Below, piece after piece: positions 8,679 to 39,751 of a stretch of DNA of 39,751 nucleotides. How positions within the stretch are numbered: the stretch's first letter is position 1; each line of letters starts with the position of its first letter. A model generated the notes under the pieces. It worked only from the letters and a program-made list of their open reading frames with translations, did not search any database and was not told where the DNA came from. The DNA lies in assembly GCA_014803505.1 (NCBI GenBank), contig JAAVBM010000108.1:1-39751 (forward strand), given 5' to 3'. A program made the position numbers and the translations under genes. This stretch comes from a bacterium (lineage in GTDB: Bacteria; Cyanobacteriota; Vampirovibrionia; Gastranaerophilales; Gastranaerophilaceae).

Positions 8679-10802
8679 TTATCTTAAACTTTCAGGAACA
8701 GCCATAGGAATTGGAGCTGTACTTGGTTTTGAAGGAACCGGAGCGGCAGGAGTTTTTGGCTTTTCGGCATCCTTATTTTCAGCAGGAACAGGTTCAGAAA
8801 CAGATTCTGCAGGAACAGCACTATCTTCCTGAACTTGTTTTCCATCATTTTCAGGGTTTTCATCATCACCAATAATTTTTGCTTCATTTCCACTATAATT
8901 AGCCAACTCAACTGGAGGATAATCAAAATCCTTATCTCCCATATCTCTTGTTGCAACAATCATAACATCATGCCAAATTTTGGCAGGAACAGTACCACCT
9001 GTAAGTCCGCCCATCTTTCTATTATCGTCATTACCAACCCAAACACCAGTTACAATATCTGGAGTGTAACCTACAAAATAAGCATCTTTATAATCATCAG
9101 TTGTACCAGTTTTTCCTGCAGCAGGCTTACCAATATCAGCAGCACGACCTGTGCCTGATTTAATAACAGTTTTCATCATTGCAGTCATTTCAGCCGCAGT
9201 TTTCAAACTTAATTGATGTGAAGATTTAGTTTTAGGAGCTCTATACAAAACGCGTCCCAACGGATCTTCAATTCTTTCAATTGCATAAGGTTGAACAACA
9301 TAGCCACCATTGGCAAATGCGCCATATGCTCGAACAAACTCAAACAATTTTACACCATTTGAGCCCAATGAAATTGTATAATCATATTCTAAAGGAGTAG
9401 TTATACCCAAAACTCTGGCAATCTGTATAACTGAACGAATACCAACTTCTTGAATCATTCTAGCTGCACAAACATTCGAAGACACCATAAGAGCTTTATA
9501 TACAGGAATTCTGCCTCTATATTTATGTCCATAGTTATGAGGTGACCATTTTGCAATAGTTAACGGACTATCATCAACTATATCATTAGGAGAAATACCT
9601 TTCTCCATAGCAGCAGCATATACAAAAGGTTTAAATGAAGATCCAGGAGGTCTTATAGCTTGAGTAACCCTGTCATATTGGCTTTCTCCATAATTTTTAC
9701 CACCTGCATATACCAAGATTCTACCATCAATAGGACTAAATGAGAAAACAGCAGCTTGCTGAGATTTACCATTCAATCCCCAAGCTTTCATGTTTTTCAA
9801 AATTGCTTCATTTGCAGCTACTTGAGCTTTTGAATCCAAAGTTGTAACAACTTTATAACCACCATGAATGATATCAGTTTCAGTAAAGCCAAGTTTTTCA
9901 AGTTCTCTCAAAACATAGTCACTAAAATATGGAGCTTTATTTGTTGTATAAATTTGTGGAACAGAACTCAAACAAATTTCAGCCTCAACAGCTTTGTCAT
10001 ATTCTTCTCGGGTAATATATTTCATTGTCAGCATTCTTTTCAGAACCTGATTACGTCTTTGTTTTGCAAGCTCAATATTATTATAAGGACTATAAACAGA
10101 TGGCGCCTGAGGAAGTCCTGCAATCAATGCTAATTCAGGTAAAGTAAGTTGATTTAGCTTTTTATTAAAATATATTTGTGCAGCTGCAGAAACACCATAC
10201 GCACCGGAACCTAAATAAACATTATTTAAATACATTTCTAAAATCTGATCTTTAGAAATAGTTTTTTCTATACGTGCAGAAACTTCAAGTTCTTTAATCT
10301 TTCTTGTAATAGTTCTTTCATTAGACAAGAAGAGAATTCTTGCTAACTGTTGAGTAAGAGTACTTGCACCTTGGACTGCGCGACGAGCAATCACATTTTG
10401 AATAGACGATCTAAGAATACCAAAGATATCGTATCCTCTATGATGGTAGAAATTTTTATCTTCTGTTGCAATAAGAGCTTTTTTCAATTCATCTGGAACA
10501 TCTTTTAATTCAACTTTATTATAAGTATAAGCAGTGAAAGTTTTAATAACTTCACCATCTTCAGAATAGAATTTTGTAACAATATTAGGTTTAAAGTCTT
10601 CTAAATTTTCTATAGGAGGAAGTGAAGACAAATATAAATTAAGAGCAACAAAACCTGCAAGCATTAGAGCTACAGAAATAATAACAAACATTTTCAAATT
10701 ATAAAAGAATCCATTAGGTTTCTTTCTACTTCTGGCGATATTTTCTCTAGCAATATCTTTAGCAGCTCTTTGTTTTTTATATCTTTCATATGAACTTGAC
10801 AT
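8679..10802 (-). CDS. mrcA: Penicillin-binding protein 1A (bifunctional)
   Basis: This class A PBP polymerises glycan strands and cross-links peptides at the outer face of the inner membrane. Its 707 residues comprise a basic cytoplasmic tail, a membrane segment at about 36-58, and a GT51 glycosyltransferase with catalytic E114 in EDKNFYHHRG and QGASTLTQQ at 144-152. The transpeptidase has S388-x2-K391 in GSSFKPF, then a SSN motif and KTGTT. The final 65 residues are a Pro/Ala/Glu-rich low-complexity tail. The ribosome site GGGAG is about 7 nt before the ATG. The promoter lies immediately beside the repeat element at 10859. Confidence 0.96.
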   Translation of the reverse strand: MSSSYERYKKQRAAKDIARENIARSRKKPNGFFYNLKMFVIISVALMLAGFVALNLYLSSLPPIENLEDFKPNIVTKFYSEDGEVIKTFTAYTYNKVELKDVPDELKKALIATEDKNFYHHRGYDIFGILRSSIQNVIARRAVQGASTLTQQLARILFLSNERTITRKIKELEVSARIEKTISKDQILEMYLNNVYLGSGAYGVSAAAQIYFNKKLNQLTLPELALIAGLPQAPSVYSPYNNIELAKQRRNQVLKRMLTMKYITREEYDKAVEAEICLSSVPQIYTTNKAPYFSDYVLRELEKLGFTETDIIHGGYKVVTTLDSKAQVAANEAILKNMKAWGLNGKSQQAAVFSFSPIDGRILVYAGGKNYGESQYDRVTQAIRPPGSSFKPFVYAAAMEKGISPNDIVDDSPLTIAKWSPHNYGHKYRGRIPVYKALMVSSNVCAARMIQEVGIRSVIQIARVLGITTPLEYDYTISLGSNGVKLFEFVRAYGAFANGGYVVQPYAIERIEDPLGRVLYRAPKTKSSHQLSLKTAAEMTAMMKTVIKSGTGRAADIGKPAAGKTGTTDDYKDAYFVGYTPDIVTGVWVGNDDNRKMGGLTGGTVPAKIWHDVMIVATRDMGDKDFDYPPVELANYSGNEAKIIGDDENPENDGKQVQEDSAVPAESVSEPVPAENKDAEKPKTPAAPVPSKPSTAPIPMAVPESLR

Positions 10803-10827: not shown

Positions 10828-10854
10828 ATTATACCACTTAAATAAATATATCAA
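10828..10854 (-). promoter_or_regulatory. Promoter of the PBP1A gene
   Basis: Reading leftward there is a TTGATA -35 box (10849-10854), a 15-nt spacer, and TATAAT (10828-10833) preceded by TGG, an extended -10. The -35 box ends only 4 nt from the terminal repeat of the element at 10859-11123. Confidence 0.6.
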
Positions 10855-10858
10855 GTTA

Positions 10859-11123
10859 TTACATAAATAATATTATTTGCACCAGCAAATCCAAGGAAGG
10901 TTTGGAAACGTAGTTTCTGATAACTCGTATCATTTGGTCTGCATTTTTCTTTTTCTCTTTTACTCGCAATAAAATGTCATGCTGAACTTGATTCAGCATC
11001 TATTAGTTTTATTGACATTGATAGATTCCGGAGCAAGTCCGGAATGACTAATTATTTGGGTTCAGCCCCAGAATTCCCTTTTAAATATCGATTAGATATT
11101 TACCCCTAATATTATTTATGTAA
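10859..11123. mobile_element. MITE-like element with 17-bp terminal inverted repeats
   Basis: This 265-bp non-coding element has TTACATAAATAATATTA at 10859-10875 and its exact complement at 11107-11123. Inside is a chain of hairpins: 10875-10890 (ATTTGC/GCAAAT), 10890-10906 (TCCAA/TTGGA), 10905-10917 (GAAAC/GTTTC), 10918-10932 (TGATA/TATCA), 10979-10999 (ATGCTGAA/TTCAGCAT) and 11025-11045 (ATTCCGGA/TCCGGAAT). The end at 11081-11124 matches 39444-39487 in inverted orientation at 41 of 44 positions. There is no open frame and no clear target duplication. It fills the gene-free gap 10803-11197. Confidence 0.75.
10976..11048. repeat. Head-to-head pair of palindromic repeat units
   Basis: Two related units of about 28 nt face each other. 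One reads rightward from 10976 and the other leftward from 11048. Both start GTCAT, share ACTTG in the loop and end ATCTAT, but their stems differ (GCTGAA/TTCAGC versus TCCGG/CCGGA). This is the architecture of REP/BIME-type intergenic repeats, nested inside the larger element. Confidence 0.7.
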
Positions 11124-11197
11124 AAATCTTTACAAAGCCTTTTAATAAAAATATGTTCAAGTTATACTTATACGGTTGACAAGAATGGAGATGAAAA

Positions 11198-12571
11198 ATG
11201 TACAATGTAGCAATAATTGGTGCAGGCCCAGCTGGTATATTCGCAGCTCTGGAAATAATGAAATTAAAACCTGAATGGAAAGTAGTTTTAATTGAAAAAG
11301 GACAACGTATAGAAAGAAGAAAATGTCCAATTCGTGAAGGTTCACCTAAATGCGTAAACTGCAAAAGATGCGGTCTTCTATGCGGTTGGGGCGGAGCAGG
11401 AGCTTTCTCTGACGGGAAACTTACATTAACTCCTGATGTTGGAGGTCACCTGGTTGACTATATGACAAGAAAACAAGCTGAAGATCTGATCAAATACGCT
11501 GATGACTTATACCTTGACTATGGTGCAACTGAAGAAGTATTTGGTACTGATATGAAAGTGTTTGAAGAAATCGAACACCAAGCAGTATTGGCAGAACTTA
11601 AACTTGTACACTCTCCTGTCAGACACTTAGGTACAGAAAGAAGTTTAGACGTATTAAAGAATATGCAGGATTACCTTGATGAAAGAATTACAATCCTAAA
11701 CAACGTTTCAGCTAAATCTTTAATCGTAGAATGCGAACAAGTTAAAGGTATTGAACTTGATAACGGAGATATAATCTCTGCAGAATACACAATTATTGCT
11801 CCTGGTAGAGAAGGTGCAGATTGGTTAACTCAAGAATTCGCAAAACATAAAATCGGTATGGTAAACAACGCCGTTGACGTAGGTGTGCGTGTAGAACTTC
11901 CAGCTCCTGTTTTTGAACCATTAACTTCTAAATTATATGAATCAAAATTAATCTATCATTCTCCAACTTTTGGCGACGAAGTTAGAACATTCTGTATGAA
12001 TCCAAATGGAGAAGTAGTTCAAGAAAATTACAGCGGAATCGCAACTGTTAACGGACACAGCTATGCTAATTACAAAACTCCTAACACTAACTTTGCCTTG
12101 CTTGTAAGTGAAAAATTCACAGAACCGTTCAAAGAACCAATCCAATATGGTCAACATATTGCAAGACTTGCTAATATGCTTGGCGGCGGGATTTTGGTTC
12201 AAAGATTTGGAGATTTGTTGGAAGGAAGACGTTCTACTCCAGAAAGAATTAAGTCAAGCATCATAACTCCAACTCTATCTTGTGCAACCCCTGGAGACTT
12301 AAGCCTTGTTATTCCTTACAGACAAATGACAAGTATCATTGAAATGATTCAAGCTCTTGATAAAATTGCTCCTGGAACAGCGTCAAGATACACATTGTTA
12401 TATGGTATCGAAGTTAAATTCTACTCAGCAAGAGTTAAATTAACAAATGAACTAGAAACAGAAGGAGTTAAAAACTTATTCACTATCGGTGATGGTGCTG
12501 GTGTAACAAGAGGTTTACTACAAGCTTCAGCTTCCGGTGTTTACGTTGCCAGAACAATTTGTGAACGTTAA
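11198..12571 (+). CDS. FAD-dependent oxidoreductase, COG2509-like
   Basis: This is a 457-residue flavoprotein. Residues 3-35 carry the FAD-binding dinucleotide fold with IIGAGPAGIFAA and an acidic residue at the end of the second strand (LIEKG). A distinctive cysteine cluster follows (C43, C52, C55, C58, C62 in CVNCKRCGLLCGWGG), then AFSDGKLTLT. The C-terminal GDGAGVTRGLLQASASG closes the FAD site. This fits the family of uncharacterised FAD-dependent dehydrogenases, whose substrate is unknown. The cysteines could bind a metal or act in redox chemistry (inference). It is monocistronic and ends at a strong terminator. Confidence 0.85.
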   Translation: MYNVAIIGAGPAGIFAALEIMKLKPEWKVVLIEKGQRIERRKCPIREGSPKCVNCKRCGLLCGWGGAGAFSDGKLTLTPDVGGHLVDYMTRKQAEDLIKYADDLYLDYGATEEVFGTDMKVFEEIEHQAVLAELKLVHSPVRHLGTERSLDVLKNMQDYLDERITILNNVSAKSLIVECEQVKGIELDNGDIISAEYTIIAPGREGADWLTQEFAKHKIGMVNNAVDVGVRVELPAPVFEPLTSKLYESKLIYHSPTFGDEVRTFCMNPNGEVVQENYSGIATVNGHSYANYKTPNTNFALLVSEKFTEPFKEPIQYGQHIARLANMLGGGILVQRFGDLLEGRRSTPERIKSSIITPTLSCATPGDLSLVIPYRQMTSIIEMIQALDKIAPGTASRYTLLYGIEVKFYSARVKLTNELETEGVKNLFTIGDGAGVTRGLLQASASGVYVARTICER

Positions 12572-16487: not shown

Positions 16488-17843
16488 CTATGAGAATGCT
16501 TTGAATGATCTTTCAATATTTTTATTCATCGCTGACTGCACTGATTCGTACTCAGTTTGCAATGCTGTATGTTCAGTATCGAGCATTTTAATTTTATTTT
16601 GATACTTTTCATCTTTTGCATTAATTTCTTCTGTTTTTCTTGTATATTCAGCTTCTGCTCTTGCAATAGCTTGATCATCATCTTTTCTTGTAATGTCATT
16701 GCAAGCAGAGAATATTTTCGGAGTCCAGCTGATACCTTTCAAATTTACAATTGTTGGAGTTGTAGGATCAGTAATAATATTTGGAACTTCTTTATTAGAG
16801 GCTACTTCAATAGTAATAGCACCTTGAGTTAAAGCATCTTGAATCCAAGTTGTACTGTTCATTAATTTAGAATCTAGAACATTATAATTAGCTCCATTTC
16901 TGCCATCCAAACTTTTAACACTGGATTCACCATTTAATCTGTACCACAAATTAGTATACCATTGAGCTTTAGAAGCATCATCATAAACATATAAATCCTC
17001 AATATGTGGTCCAAAATCTTCAGCTTCGGCATTAAATTCGGCTAGGATATTATCATATTTTGCTTTGTTTAGATATTCATCTGTATAACTACCATCTTCA
17101 TTATAAGAAGCTTTATCACTTAGCCAGTTATCATATGTTACACAAGAAACATATGATAATTTAGCAGCTGCCAAATTTCTACTTGCTTCATTTAACTGAT
17201 CTTTAACATCAAGTCCATTATCTTGTTTTGACTTCAATTCATCATACTTAGCAAGAGCATTCATAAATACATCATCAGCATATGAACGTTCGATTTCCCA
17301 AGCTCTATCTGATGTAATATCTTCATAAGATACATCATTACCTTCGTCATCCTTACCGGTAACTTTATATGTTGCTTTTTTCGCATCTTCAATAGCTGCA
17401 TCCCAGTCATTTTTATAACCGACATATTCTGGACTTTGAAGTAATTCGTAATTGTCTTTTAAAGTTGAAGATTTCCACTGTTTAGTCAATCCATAAGATT
17501 CTAAGAACTGATCTAAATTATCAGCTGCTTCAAATTTACTAATATCGTCATGAGGAAGTAAAACCTGACCTGTTACATTAACCAAACTATATTGATTTTT
17601 CAAATCAGTATATTGGTACAATGAACCTGCTGTCAATCTTGCAGAAGTAGCTTCACCTTTCGCATCATAAGTCGTATACATCAATTGAGTAGTATTTAAT
17701 GCCTTAATATATTCAGAACTTGCTTCTTGAGATTGTGTAGCAAGCCTCATTTTCGCATTAGAAATCTGTTGAGATTCATACTCATTAGATGTTAACCTAG
17801 CGGTTATTGATAATAATCGACCCTGTGATGAAGACATTCCCAT
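16488..17843 (-). CDS. Unrecognised 451-residue helical protein behind a sigma28-like promoter
   Basis: I do not recognise a characterised family. The protein starts MGMSSSQGRLLSITARLTS and is rich in Ser, Asn, Gln and Asp. The N-terminal 70 residues look amphipathic (LTSNEYESQQISNAKMRLAT), the middle is Tyr/Asp-rich, and the last 70 residues (IARAEAEYTRKTEEINAKDE onward) form a probable coiled coil. There is no signal peptide, membrane segment or cysteine motif; the Cys residues are scattered. The helical ends around a variable middle recall secreted filament or hook-associated proteins, which is only an analogy. AAAGGAA lies about 10 nt before the ATG. Its promoter resembles flagellar-class promoters. 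Confidence 0.8.
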   Translation of the reverse strand: MGMSSSQGRLLSITARLTSNEYESQQISNAKMRLATQSQEASSEYIKALNTTQLMYTTYDAKGEATSARLTAGSLYQYTDLKNQYSLVNVTGQVLLPHDDISKFEAADNLDQFLESYGLTKQWKSSTLKDNYELLQSPEYVGYKNDWDAAIEDAKKATYKVTGKDDEGNDVSYEDITSDRAWEIERSYADDVFMNALAKYDELKSKQDNGLDVKDQLNEASRNLAAAKLSYVSCVTYDNWLSDKASYNEDGSYTDEYLNKAKYDNILAEFNAEAEDFGPHIEDLYVYDDASKAQWYTNLWYRLNGESSVKSLDGRNGANYNVLDSKLMNSTTWIQDALTQGAITIEVASNKEVPNIITDPTTPTIVNLKGISWTPKIFSACNDITRKDDDQAIARAEAEYTRKTEEINAKDEKYQNKIKMLDTEHTALQTEYESVQSAMNKNIERSFKAFS

Positions 17844-17879
17844 TTTGAAAATATTCCTTTCATAACTTTATTACTCTAC

Positions 17880-17907
17880 TTATCGGCATAGATAAGCATT
17901 TACTTTA
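17880..17907 (-). promoter_or_regulatory. Sigma28 (FliA)-like promoter
   Basis: Reading leftward there is TAAAGTAA (17900-17907), 12 nt, then GCCGATAA (17880-17887). The established FliA consensus is TAAAGTTT, 11 nt, GCCGATAA. The -10 octamer is a perfect match. The predicted start lies roughly 30 nt before the ATG at 17843, leaving room for the ribosome site. GATAAG/CTTATC also forms a 6-bp hairpin here. Confidence 0.55.
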
Positions 17908-18071
17908 ATAATCCAAGGAATATATGAAGAAATGTAACAAAAAATATATAAACTGAATATAAAAAGTCAATATTTTTTTAATGGAAGTTTTTATATAGAT
18001 GTAAGAGATAAATAAAGAAAAAGAAATAACAAAGTTTAAATAAGATTTTTTAGAAACGAGAGGATTTAACT

Positions 18072-18248
18072 ATGGCTACAATGCTATTATTTTCTGATGC
18101 TGTAACATCTGCATATAAAGATACTTCAAAAGCAATAAAAGAAGTGGATTTGAGTGATAAAAAAGTAGTAAAGAAAACATTATCACAAATAATGAAACAA
18201 TCATTCTTCCACGGAGCAAACAGATTTGGAACAAACTTTATCGCATAG
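18072..18248 (+). CDS. Small protein of 58 residues, unknown
   Basis: This short frame has a good ribosome site (GAGAGGA, 7 nt before the ATG) and a strong terminator about 68 bp after its stop. It encodes a basic, helical peptide starting MATMLLFSDAVTSAYKDTSK and ending HGANRFGTNFIA. A Lys-rich centre (DKKVVKKTLSQIMKQ) is visible. There is no clear membrane segment or signal peptide. It is divergent from the 451-residue protein gene, with 228 bp between them. Confidence 0.65.
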   Translation: MATMLLFSDAVTSAYKDTSKAIKEVDLSDKKVVKKTLSQIMKQSFFHGANRFGTNFIA

Positions 18249-18315
18249 AAAAGATCTCGTTGGAAATTAGGAAACAAAAGGAAAGAAAACAAATTAAGGA
18301 ATTAGGATATAAAAA

Positions 18316-18340
18316 GACCCGTTAATCGGGTCATTTTTTT
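18316..18340 (+). terminator. Intrinsic terminator
   Basis: GACCCG (18316-18321), a 5-nt loop TTAAT, CGGGTC (18327-18332), then A and seven Ts. It closes the 58-residue gene. Confidence 0.9.
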
Positions 18341-18385
18341 GCTCACAAAAAGCAAATTTTCACTCCAAGAATACTTTATATAAAT

Positions 18386-18775
18386 ATGGTAAGTGTAAAT
18401 CAATTTAAATTTAATCCCAGAATGGGACTTCTCACTCTTGAGAACAATTCAAATAAAATTTTAGCAAAAGCAAACATTATTGAAACTCCTGACAGAGTTT
18501 GCCTTTGCCACTTGAAATCCTATGAGAAAAACAAAGGATATGGCAGTCAAATAATTGAATACTTAAAAGAAAAATTTGCCGGCAAAACAATTAGCCTCAA
18601 TGCAAGCTGGATTGAGGATAAACCTCCGCATAAATTTTATATCGACAAAGGATTTGTACCTAAAGATAAAAACGTTTTCGAAAAACTTCAAATCTGGATT
18701 AAAAATGGTGCAAAGCTTGAAGAATTCCCGTTTCCTCGTTGTGATTCCAGTTGCCCTATGACATTTAATACCTAA
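18386..18775 (+). CDS. GNAT-like acetyltransferase
   Basis: This 129-residue protein has the GNAT acetyl-CoA loop as NKGYGSQIIEYLKEKF (residues about 50-65) and the C-terminal HKFYIDKGFVPKD segment typical of the fold. The substrate is unknown. The tail carries CDSSCP. There is no Shine-Dalgarno sequence: a TATATAAAT stretch abuts the ATG, so the mRNA may be leaderless, or translation may start at M13. It forms a small rightward accessory group with the 58-residue gene upstream and the JAMM-like gene downstream. Confidence 0.7.
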   Translation: MVSVNQFKFNPRMGLLTLENNSNKILAKANIIETPDRVCLCHLKSYEKNKGYGSQIIEYLKEKFAGKTISLNASWIEDKPPHKFYIDKGFVPKDKNVFEKLQIWIKNGAKLEEFPFPRCDSSCPMTFNT

Positions 18776-18867
18776 GAAAATTAATGTTTATTATTCAATT
18801 GAAACAATTTAACAATTTCTTTTTCAAAAAAACGTTATATAAATATAGATAGGCAATATTCAAAATT

Positions 18868-19671
18868 ATGGGAAAAATTAACTCAGGAATAAATCTAACG
18901 AAAAAGGTATTTATAAGAACATGCGAAAATAATTCACTATGTTCAAAACAGCTTAAAAACATTAACGCTTCAGAACTCGGATATTGTTTACCAAACGGTA
19001 ATATTAACTTCCAAACAGAAGAAGCGGCTTTAAAATATATCAAAAATCGATTGCTTGCCTCTTTAAATGGGGAACAACAATTTGAACGTTGTATTGCCAA
19101 AAGAGATACAAGAATATTATCAGAAACAAACGGTAGTAAAAATCATTGTGATTTACCTTTTAATGGTGAAGAATTTTTAGAAAGGATTTCTGATAAAGCT
19201 GTTCGAGATGTGGAAATTTGGCATTCACATCCTGATGAATATGGGATAGCGAAGGCTCCCCCTTTATCACCTCCTGAAGGTGGCGACTTAGCAACTTTTA
19301 ATGAATTACATTTAAAGAAAATAGTTGCAATGAATAGCAAAGGTGAAATTAATAGTATGGAAGTATTGCCCAGTTATTCAAGTGAGATGTTTAATGAATT
19401 TAGAAACAAATTTGATGATTTTGTAGGGGCAAGAGTAATTAAACTATTACCTGAAAAGCTCCAACACCGAATTGAACAAATAACAAAAATTCTGATGGAA
19501 AATAAAGGTACTTCAATACCTCAAGAATTAAAGAATGAACTTAAATATATAGAACAATTACAAATAAAATCACAGAGCAAAGGTGAGTTTGCTCAAATAA
19601 TGCATGATTATTATAAAACTGCTGATCAATATGGAATGAGATATTATACAAATTTTTCCAATCTTGCATAA
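18868..19671 (+). CDS. Putative JAMM/MPN-like metalloprotease domain protein
   Basis: This is a 267-residue protein with no signal peptide. WHSHPDEYG (H119, H121) followed by an acidic D140 in GGDLATFNELH resembles the JAMM zinc site H-x-H-P...S...D. The canonical spacing from the second His to Asp is 10 residues, but here it is 18, with APPLSPPEGG in between. That extra segment is encoded by a palindromic DNA stretch that looks like an inserted repeat. The C-terminal half is helical and Lys/Glu-rich. The ribosome site is weak. The function is uncertain, and zinc binding is only suggested by the motif. Confidence 0.55.
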   Translation: MGKINSGINLTKKVFIRTCENNSLCSKQLKNINASELGYCLPNGNINFQTEEAALKYIKNRLLASLNGEQQFERCIAKRDTRILSETNGSKNHCDLPFNGEEFLERISDKAVRDVEIWHSHPDEYGIAKAPPLSPPEGGDLATFNELHLKKIVAMNSKGEINSMEVLPSYSSEMFNEFRNKFDDFVGARVIKLLPEKLQHRIEQITKILMENKGTSIPQELKNELKYIEQLQIKSQSKGEFAQIMHDYYKTADQYGMRYYTNFSNLA

Positions 19672-19695
19672 TTCATTACACGGAAAATTTTGCAT

Positions 19696-19723
19696 AAAAA
19701 AGAAACCCAACAAGCGGATTTCT
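19696..19723 (-). terminator. Second tRNA-type terminator
   Basis: On the leftward RNA, AGAAATCC, a 7-nt loop GCTTGTT, and GGGTTTCT pair (one U-G), followed by a T-run. It nearly duplicates the tRNA-Asp terminator at 19860-19890, including the identical loop. Confidence 0.75.
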
Positions 19724-19730
19724 TCTTAAA

Positions 19731-19855
19731 ATGGCGGGAACACCAAGTAGGTACTTCATTACATTGGCTCATTCTTCGCCTAGAACTGAAGCAACGAGGG
19801 TCTCACCTACAGGTCTTCGACCTGTGAGTTCTCGCCTCATTATCCCTCTACTTTT
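19731..19855. repeat. Duplicated tRNA 3' end followed by a structured non-coding segment
   Basis: GTTCCCGCCATTT on the minus strand (ending at 19741) repeats the last bases of tRNA-Asp plus flank, 164 bp from the true gene. The DNA between holds nested complementary blocks: ACAGGTC/GACCTGT with a 3-nt loop, then CTCAC/GTGAG, then CGAG/CTCG (about 19794-19834), plus AAGTA/TACTT at 19745-19756. No cloverleaf can be folded. It may be a remnant of integration at the tRNA or a palindromic repeat. Confidence 0.55.
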
Positions 19856-19859
19856 AAAC

Positions 19860-19890
19860 AAAAAAAGAAGTCCAACAAGCGGACTTCTTT
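19860..19890 (-). terminator. Terminator of tRNA-Asp
   Basis: On the leftward RNA, AAAGAAGTCC, a 7-nt loop GCTTGTT, and GGACTTCTTT give a 10-bp stem followed by a T-run. It starts 6 nt after the tRNA CCA end. Confidence 0.9.
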
Positions 19891-19895
19891 TTAAA

Positions 19896-19973
19896 TGGCG
19901 GGAACGACGAGGCTCGAACTCGCGACCTCATGCGTGACAGGCATGCGCTCTAACCAAACTGAGCTACGCTCCC
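19896..19973 (-). tRNA. tRNA-Asp (anticodon GTC)
   Basis: The acceptor stem GGGAGCG pairs with CGTTCCC (one G-T). The anticodon arm is CATGC-CTGTCAC-GCATG with anticodon GTC, and the T arm GCGAG-TTCGAGC-CTCGT is followed by discriminator G and an encoded CCA. The D arm is GCTC/GAGC. A -35/-10 promoter lies just upstream and a strong terminator just downstream, so it is a single-gene unit. Confidence 0.96.
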
Positions 19974-19993
19974 ATTTCCTTGGTTATGTTTTT

Positions 19994-20021
19994 ATTATAC
20001 TTGCTAATTTTTTTTTTGCAA
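19994..20021 (-). promoter_or_regulatory. Promoter of tRNA-Asp
   Basis: Reading leftward there is a TTGCAA -35 box (20016-20021), a 16-nt spacer, and a TATAAT -10 box (19994-19999), about 20 nt before the mature tRNA 5' end. Confidence 0.8.
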
Positions 20022-39400: not shown

Positions 39401-39443
39401 CTATGAAGATGCAAAAAATAAATAACATATTTATTAATCTCTA

Positions 39444-39751
39444 TTTACATAAACTATATTAGAGGTAAATATCTAATCGATATTTAATAAAAGGGGTTTC
39501 AGGGGAATCCCCTGATGACTCGAGCCATTTAATCAAGCGTGTTTTTCTTTTTCGGTTCTACTTTTTCTTTTTGCGTCGCAATCAAAAAGAAAAAGTGAAC
39601 AAAGAATATTCTTTATTAAAAATAGTTTTAGCTCCTTCATTTCTTTCTCTACTTGGTTGTTCGCACTAAACGGGACTACAGTCAAAAGCTCAACGCTTTC
39701 GCCTTGCGCCCTCTGCTCACAATCCGCTTTATTGCGAGTAGAAGAGAAAGA
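39444..39751. mobile_element. Second copy of the repeat family, different interior, cut by the window end
   Basis: The end at 39444-39487 matches the element at 10859-11123 (its 11081-11124 end, inverted) at 41 of 44 positions. A GGGG-rich hairpin follows in both copies (TCAGGGG/CCCCTGA at 39499-39515 here). The far part TTTATTGCGAGTA at about 39731-39743 and the AGAGAAA tract match the complement of 10954-10978 in the first copy. The interior between these blocks is unrelated and longer. No open frame is seen. This accounts for the gene-free stretch 39389-39751. Confidence 0.65.
39560..39596. other. Perfect 14-bp hairpin inside the second element
   Basis: ACTTTTTCTTTTTG (39560-39573) and CAAAAAGAAAAAGT (39583-39596) flank a 9-nt loop CGTCGCAAT. 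The stem is A/T only with pyrimidine/purine strand bias, unlike the terminators in this window. Confidence 0.75.

Follow-up and report, generated by a model that had tools for sequence, protein, structure and literature searches.

The closest described counterparts of the element analysed here are the pdif/dif modules of Acinetobacter, which occur on plasmids and chromosomes and include reported gene-free forms (PMC13141974, PMC12907356, PMC11705084). Sites of the dif/Xer type share an ATAA-centre-TTAT architecture (PMC11705084; also PMC13141974, PMC12907356), and pdif recombination needs identical or nearly identical 6-bp spacers (PMC13141974). CGTC-type REP elements, in turn, are characterized by a CGTC or TGTC tag, a stem of 8-9 bp, a loop of 4-5 nt and an arrangement as head-to-head dimers (PMC3733652). 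Prediction of dif failed for Cyanobacteria (PMC3025954), and a literature search on repeats of Gastranaerophilales, on miniature or invertible dif-like elements and on Xer in Melainabacteria retrieved nothing relevant.

Here we describe a 265-bp unit located within a stretch of 39,751 nucleotides (hereafter, the window), which corresponds to contig C108 of a 2.26-Mb genome of the uncultured gut order Gastranaerophilales, assembled into 128 contigs (G000). We propose, with a probability of roughly 0.78, that the 265 bp constitute an Xer (dif-type) module of the chromosome, namely, a gene-free cassette of nested palindromes placed between two inverted 28-bp sites. Every defining feature of a dif-type module that can be tested at the sequence level appears to be present, in a chromosomal, gene-free and MITE-like form.

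The 265-bp unit and its genomic context

The unit is bounded by exact 17-bp inverted repeats (10859-10875 and 11107-11123), which, when extended to 10856-10875 and 11107-11126, match at 19 of 20 positions. No ORF of at least 80 aa lies wholly within the 265 bp, and the sole ORF touching them is a TTG-start frame on the minus strand (11116-11364), situated mostly in the oxidoreductase region. Both the coordinates and the ORF list thus agree with the preliminary description, in which the unit is non-coding, 265 bp long and perfectly repeated over 17 bp at its ends. The unit sits between two divergent genes, one for a PBP1A-family protein (8679-10802, minus strand; TIGR02074, 611.6 bits) and the other for an FAD-dependent oxidoreductase (11198-12571, plus strand). 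A TTGATA box that probably belongs to the PBP promoter (10854-10849, the reverse complement of 10849-10854) ends 4 nt from position 10859, outside the left site, and is conserved in species devoid of the unit. The PBP1A neighbour and the 4-nt distance had been noted before and are borne out by the TIGR02074 match and the position of the box; judged by position alone, the unit may influence the expression of PBP1A.

The single-stranded unit is predicted to fold with −73.3 kcal/mol, compared to −45.6 ± 4.35 kcal/mol for shuffled sequences (z = −6.4; minus strand, z = −4.3), the stem formed by the terminal inverted repeats closing over a chain of stem-loops. Comparison of the ends across elements indicates that the functional end is a 28-bp site (10856-10883 and 11099-11126) and therefore longer than 17 bp. 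The left dif-like site (minus strand), with arm and centre limits taken from the comparison of 55 elements described below, consists of a D arm TTATTACATAA (10856-10866), the centre ATAATA (10867-10872) and a C arm TTATTTGCACC (10873-10883). The right site (plus strand), delimited by sequence, end alignment and the same 55-element comparison, is inverted: its C arm (11099-11109) begins with TTAG instead of TTAT, its centre (11110-11115) reads ATAATA on the minus strand and is thus the same as the left one, and its D arm (11116-11126) is TTATGTAAAAA. Sequence and fold also place a subterminal hairpin, AAATATC-GATTA-GATATTT, at the right end (11083-11101, plus strand).

Matching between the two ends is confined to the 6-bp centre

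Written as 28-mers, the module ends have an 11-6-11 layout, nnnTTACATAA / ANNATR / TTAtnnGnAnn, in inverted orientation at the two ends, and contain the ATAA-N6-TTAT architecture of dif/Xer sites. The arms were provisionally named D and C by resemblance to known sites; the C arm is only weakly conserved, as TTA(t)..G.A. The detection pattern placed no constraint on the two centre bases that vary most or on any position past TTA, so that matching between centres was not built into the collection.

Left and right ends were compared position by position in 55 elements. The three variable centre positions match between the ends in 95%, 100% and 100% of cases, compared to the expected 35%, 43% and 78% (z = 9.6, 9.6 and 6.8, respectively), whereas positions of equal entropy in the C arm, further towards the interior and outside the sites are unmatched (z values mostly from −2.8 to 1.9, with a maximum of 2.9 at a C-arm position that is almost invariant). 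For a count of whole centres, modules from G000 and related genomes were reduced to one member per orthologous locus, resulting in 46 modules. Identical 6-bp centres were found at both ends in 41 of them, with 6.8 expected and not a single shuffle out of 20,000 reaching this number, while in the remaining modules the two centres differ by one base. Altogether, 11 different centres are represented. The two ends disagree at 1.8% of the compared centre positions, whereas the corresponding values are 7% for the D arm and 45% for the C arm. There is residual weak matching in some C-arm and inner triplets (8 vs 3.1 and 12 vs 6.2 expected), far below that of the centre; by eye, the strand bias of G-T mismatches in the ends is mixed. 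Since identity is limited to the six centre bases, it is not explained by base pairing, quasi-palindrome correction or common descent, whereas strand exchange needs it.

Such sites would be used as follows. The two arms would be the binding sites of host XerC and XerD, which would exchange strands in the centre. A recombination event joining both ends of one module would flip the cassette and leave the centres identical, while recombination between modules with an equal centre would lead to an exchange of cargo or to a chromosome rearrangement. Accordingly worded as a property of the cassette, it is probably invertible in place by host Xer enzymes and may be swappable.

Copies and empty loci

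In 13 other species of the genus the divergent PBP1A/oxidoreductase pair is kept and the unit is absent, the gap between the start codons being 122-242 bp, compared to 395 bp with the unit. No full 28-bp site was evident in these empty loci. The host genome G000 contains further complete copies with the same ends as well as many partial matches to interior parts. The nearest copy (G000:C16:26152-26545) is 96% identical on the left side and 90% on the right. The search for further copies and for an empty site, both suggested by the preliminary description, thus gave positive answers, and the similarity among copies stops at the ends. Exact ends were detected in 52 of 192 genomes at the family and order level, although single matches in some of these genomes may be due to chance; numbers per related genome rise to about 45 in G004 and 84 in G043. 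Many contigs of G004 and G064 start or stop within a few hundred bases of a module end, which suggests that modules probably break assemblies. Upstream of gmk, the window itself has a second module, which is truncated by the end of the contig (39442-39751; site 39442-39469, centre ACTATA), and another contig of the same genome, C123, starts with the groEL-side portion of a module that is probably this one.

At three loci of G002 (L226, L228 and L229), the module is flanked beyond its sites by inverted repeats that resemble one another and centre on TGTCAAG.AATTA/TTGACATG; these are perhaps divergent promoters or an older palindrome entered by the module.

Cargo of the modules

The cargo of the window copy (10884-11098) is a gene-free chain of palindromes and repeat fragments. 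At 10942-10974 (plus strand) a TTTCTTTCTC-type hairpin is represented by an orphan 5′ arm, for which the C16 copy retains both the 3′ arm and a nested insert; this half of the hairpin and the insert were lost from the window copy. The previously described hairpin chain is therefore correct as to a stable series of stem-loops, except that 10942-10974 forms no hairpin in the window copy. Next to the orphan arm there is a REP unit of the CGTC-2 type (10975-11002, plus strand), with a TGTC tag, an 8-bp stem ATGCTGAA, the loop CTTGA and the tail CTA (PMC3733652). A second REP unit (11022-11049, minus strand) has the tag AGTC, the stem ATTCCGGA and the loop CTTGC. The two form a head-to-head dimer and fit the definition of CGTC-type REPs, the second with the tag AGTC. 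The segment 117-193 of the unit is found alone and in tandem elsewhere in G000. The earlier suggestion of a scaffold carrying other repeats is thus supported by the REP dimer and the nested palindromes inside.

Interiors vary from copy to copy, with a CGTC-type REP dimer in G000, TTTCTTTCTC-type hairpins in G009 and different hairpin chains in G002, and some cargo palindromes have additional sequences inserted into their loops. Orthologous loci whose flanks are well conserved show retained ends around an interior that is exchanged, deleted or mosaic. No gene was found in any examined module. Rfam matches in the window are limited to a tRNA at 19899-19973, with none in the unit. Transport of the left cargo segment by viruses was rejected, as the segment has no match in IMG/VR.

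Related repeats also occur outside modules. In G000, L028 (327-569) and L026 (1400-1700) contain tandem CGTC-type REP dimers and repeated GTCCGGAATGACAA units. The same insert of about 42 nt (GACTAGAAAATAGCGAAAGCG...CTACTTGGT) is present in REP hairpin loops at L005 (C127) and L028 (C59), and another one (GCGGATTGTGAGC...AACCAAGT) is found repeatedly in TTTCTTTCTC-type hairpin loops. From their positions, we take these loop inserts to be loop-targeting repeats nested within repeats.

Inversion, exchange and recombinases

A pair of orthologous loci in G002 and G015 shares flanks at 93-95%, and the module is inverted between the sites: its alignment score is 378 as is and 725 with the interior inverted, the crossover falling in the sites. 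In G009, G043 and G052, sites of opposite polarity with matched centres bound the same kind of cargo. There are three such modules in G009 (centres CATATA, CATATA and AATATA), and 12 were examined in G043. Both polarities are represented within one genus. The two polarities would correspond to the C- and D-type modules of the Acinetobacter literature.

Possible traces of exchange between modules were observed at the PBP locus. G017 has the groEL-gmk and PBP-oxidoreductase adjacencies, both without modules, and in G009 a single contig has groEL-module-PBP and, at a distance of 60 kb, gmk-module-oxidoreductase (C1:151.2 kb and 212.1-212.5 kb). Such swapped adjacencies are what an exchange between two modules would leave, but homologous recombination between modules could equally be the source of the 60-kb rearrangement. 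In G009, the sites at gmk, PBP and oxidoreductase all have the centre ACAATA; in G000, modules are likewise present at both loci, one having ATAATA and the other ACTATA as its centre. Elsewhere in the window, synteny with G009 is broken at 17100-20000, and each of the parts at 11.2-17.1 kb and 20-39.4 kb is collinear with a block of G009; the two blocks stand in the other order there and are joined by a module, representing either a rearrangement or an assembly join.

The search for Xer proteins covered the sister species G009, which encodes two Xer-type recombinases. Their scores fall just short of the XerC and XerD equivalog cut-offs and exceed that of the tyrosine recombinase subfamily NF001399. 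No GC-skew switch that would place the chromosomal dif was seen inside the G009 contigs examined. An unpaired intergenic dif-like site of this genome (GGTGTAAATAA ATTAAA TTATGTAAAGA; C1:188306-188333), located away from a skew switch, is a weak candidate for chromosomal dif. Lone single-copy sites in other genera, also considered for this role, mostly look like chance occurrences, several of them apparently in coding sequence.

Alternative explanations

An ordinary MITE, which would descend from a DNA transposon by deletion and depend for its movement on a transposase acting in trans and recognizing the terminal inverted repeats, would share with the unit its inverted ends, the lack of genes, the small size, the dispersed intergenic copies and the empty sites. 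On the spread to new loci, too, it would do better than the Xer model, as an inverted site pair alone does not explain how modules arrive there. Nonetheless, this origin seems unlikely, because left-right matching is restricted to six internal bases and ends of opposite polarity enclose the same kind of cargo. Moreover, no target-site duplication is visible at the flanks of the modules inspected, and the sites listed for about 10 genomes include neither a longer element with the same ends nor a widely spaced site pair of the kind expected for a parent transposon. Of the earlier label "MITE-like", the discrete, dispersed and gene-free character holds, whereas the ends appear to act as inverted recombination sites rather than ordinary transposon ends. 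A Y1/RAYT transposase was rejected as the mover: none is encoded in G000, G009 or G002, whereas 21 of 46 genus members have one, and none of 10 examined loci is REP-flanked on both sides or has a module end. At one locus (L217, G029:C2), a Y1/RAYT-like gene has CGTC-type REPs some hundred bases off; the nine other examined Y1 loci are without such REPs.

The very stable fold (z = −6.4) and the presence of copies beside promoters and behind genes would be compatible with a structured non-coding or cis-regulatory RNA, in which hairpins and closing stem are conserved as an RNA fold. We consider this highly improbable, since interiors are unrelated between copies and replaced wholesale at orthologous loci, Rfam provides no match, and matching of the ends stops at the centre even though the C arm would share the same stem. 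The position-wise test likewise rules out compensatory pairing in a stem as the cause of matched ends, so that neither the folded RNA proposed at the outset nor the compensatory changes sought in the ends were upheld. Little credence can be given, too, to a passive palindrome whose ends are kept alike by replication template switching or gene conversion without a recombinase. The interiors are indeed nested palindromes with obvious deletions and loop inserts, but homogenization would cover the whole arm, and the C arm beside the matched centre differs at 45% of positions. The dif-type module thus remains our preferred interpretation.

Implications

If this interpretation is extended, a whole order might harbour gene-free, MITE-like cassettes that Xer can invert, dispersed between genes and, in some species, numbering tens per genome. 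The centre would serve as an address choosing which ends recombine, so that modules flip and trade cargo while chromosome-wide scrambling is limited, and promoter-side modules may be reversible switches. We offer this broader picture tentatively, as somewhat less probable than not. A class of MITE-like repeats would be recast as inverted Xer modules, dif-type modules would extend from Acinetobacter to an uncultured gut lineage, and candidate recombination sites would be gained for a group related to Cyanobacteria. The centre-only matching test is general and can tell recombination sites apart from transposon ends or RNA stems, whatever the repeat family. Tolerance of a chromosome to tens of Xer-like sites also becomes a testable question.

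Comparison with known systems

The modules share with Acinetobacter pdif the 28-bp 11-6-11 sites with ATAA-N6-TTAT, their inverse orientation at the two ends, the existence of C-internal and D-internal types, inversion between identical-spacer sites and, presumably, the use of host Xer. They differ from it in being mostly single and dispersed among chromosomal genes, tens per genome in some species, in carrying nested palindromes and, in the examined modules, no genes, and in having, as a rule, identical centres at both ends. The D arm is TTATGTAA here and TTATGTTAA in Acinetobacter, the phylum is different, and none of the modules was seen on plasmids. MITEs are similarly short and gene-free, with inverted ends, many intergenic copies and empty sites, but the ends described here resemble recombination sites with matched centres, and neither a target duplication at the flanks inspected nor a parent transposon among the listed sites was found. 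CGTC-type REP dimers (PMC3733652) correspond to a part of the cargo, with its TGTC/AGTC tag, 8-bp stem, 5-nt loop and head-to-head arrangement; here, however, the dimer is a passenger, also present outside modules and without an evident transposase. Finally, IMEX (PMC5357621) likewise combine dif-like sites with host Xer and lack a recombinase of their own, as the modules presumably do, but IMEX insert at the chromosomal dif, whereas the modules are gene-free and lie at many loci between inverted sites.
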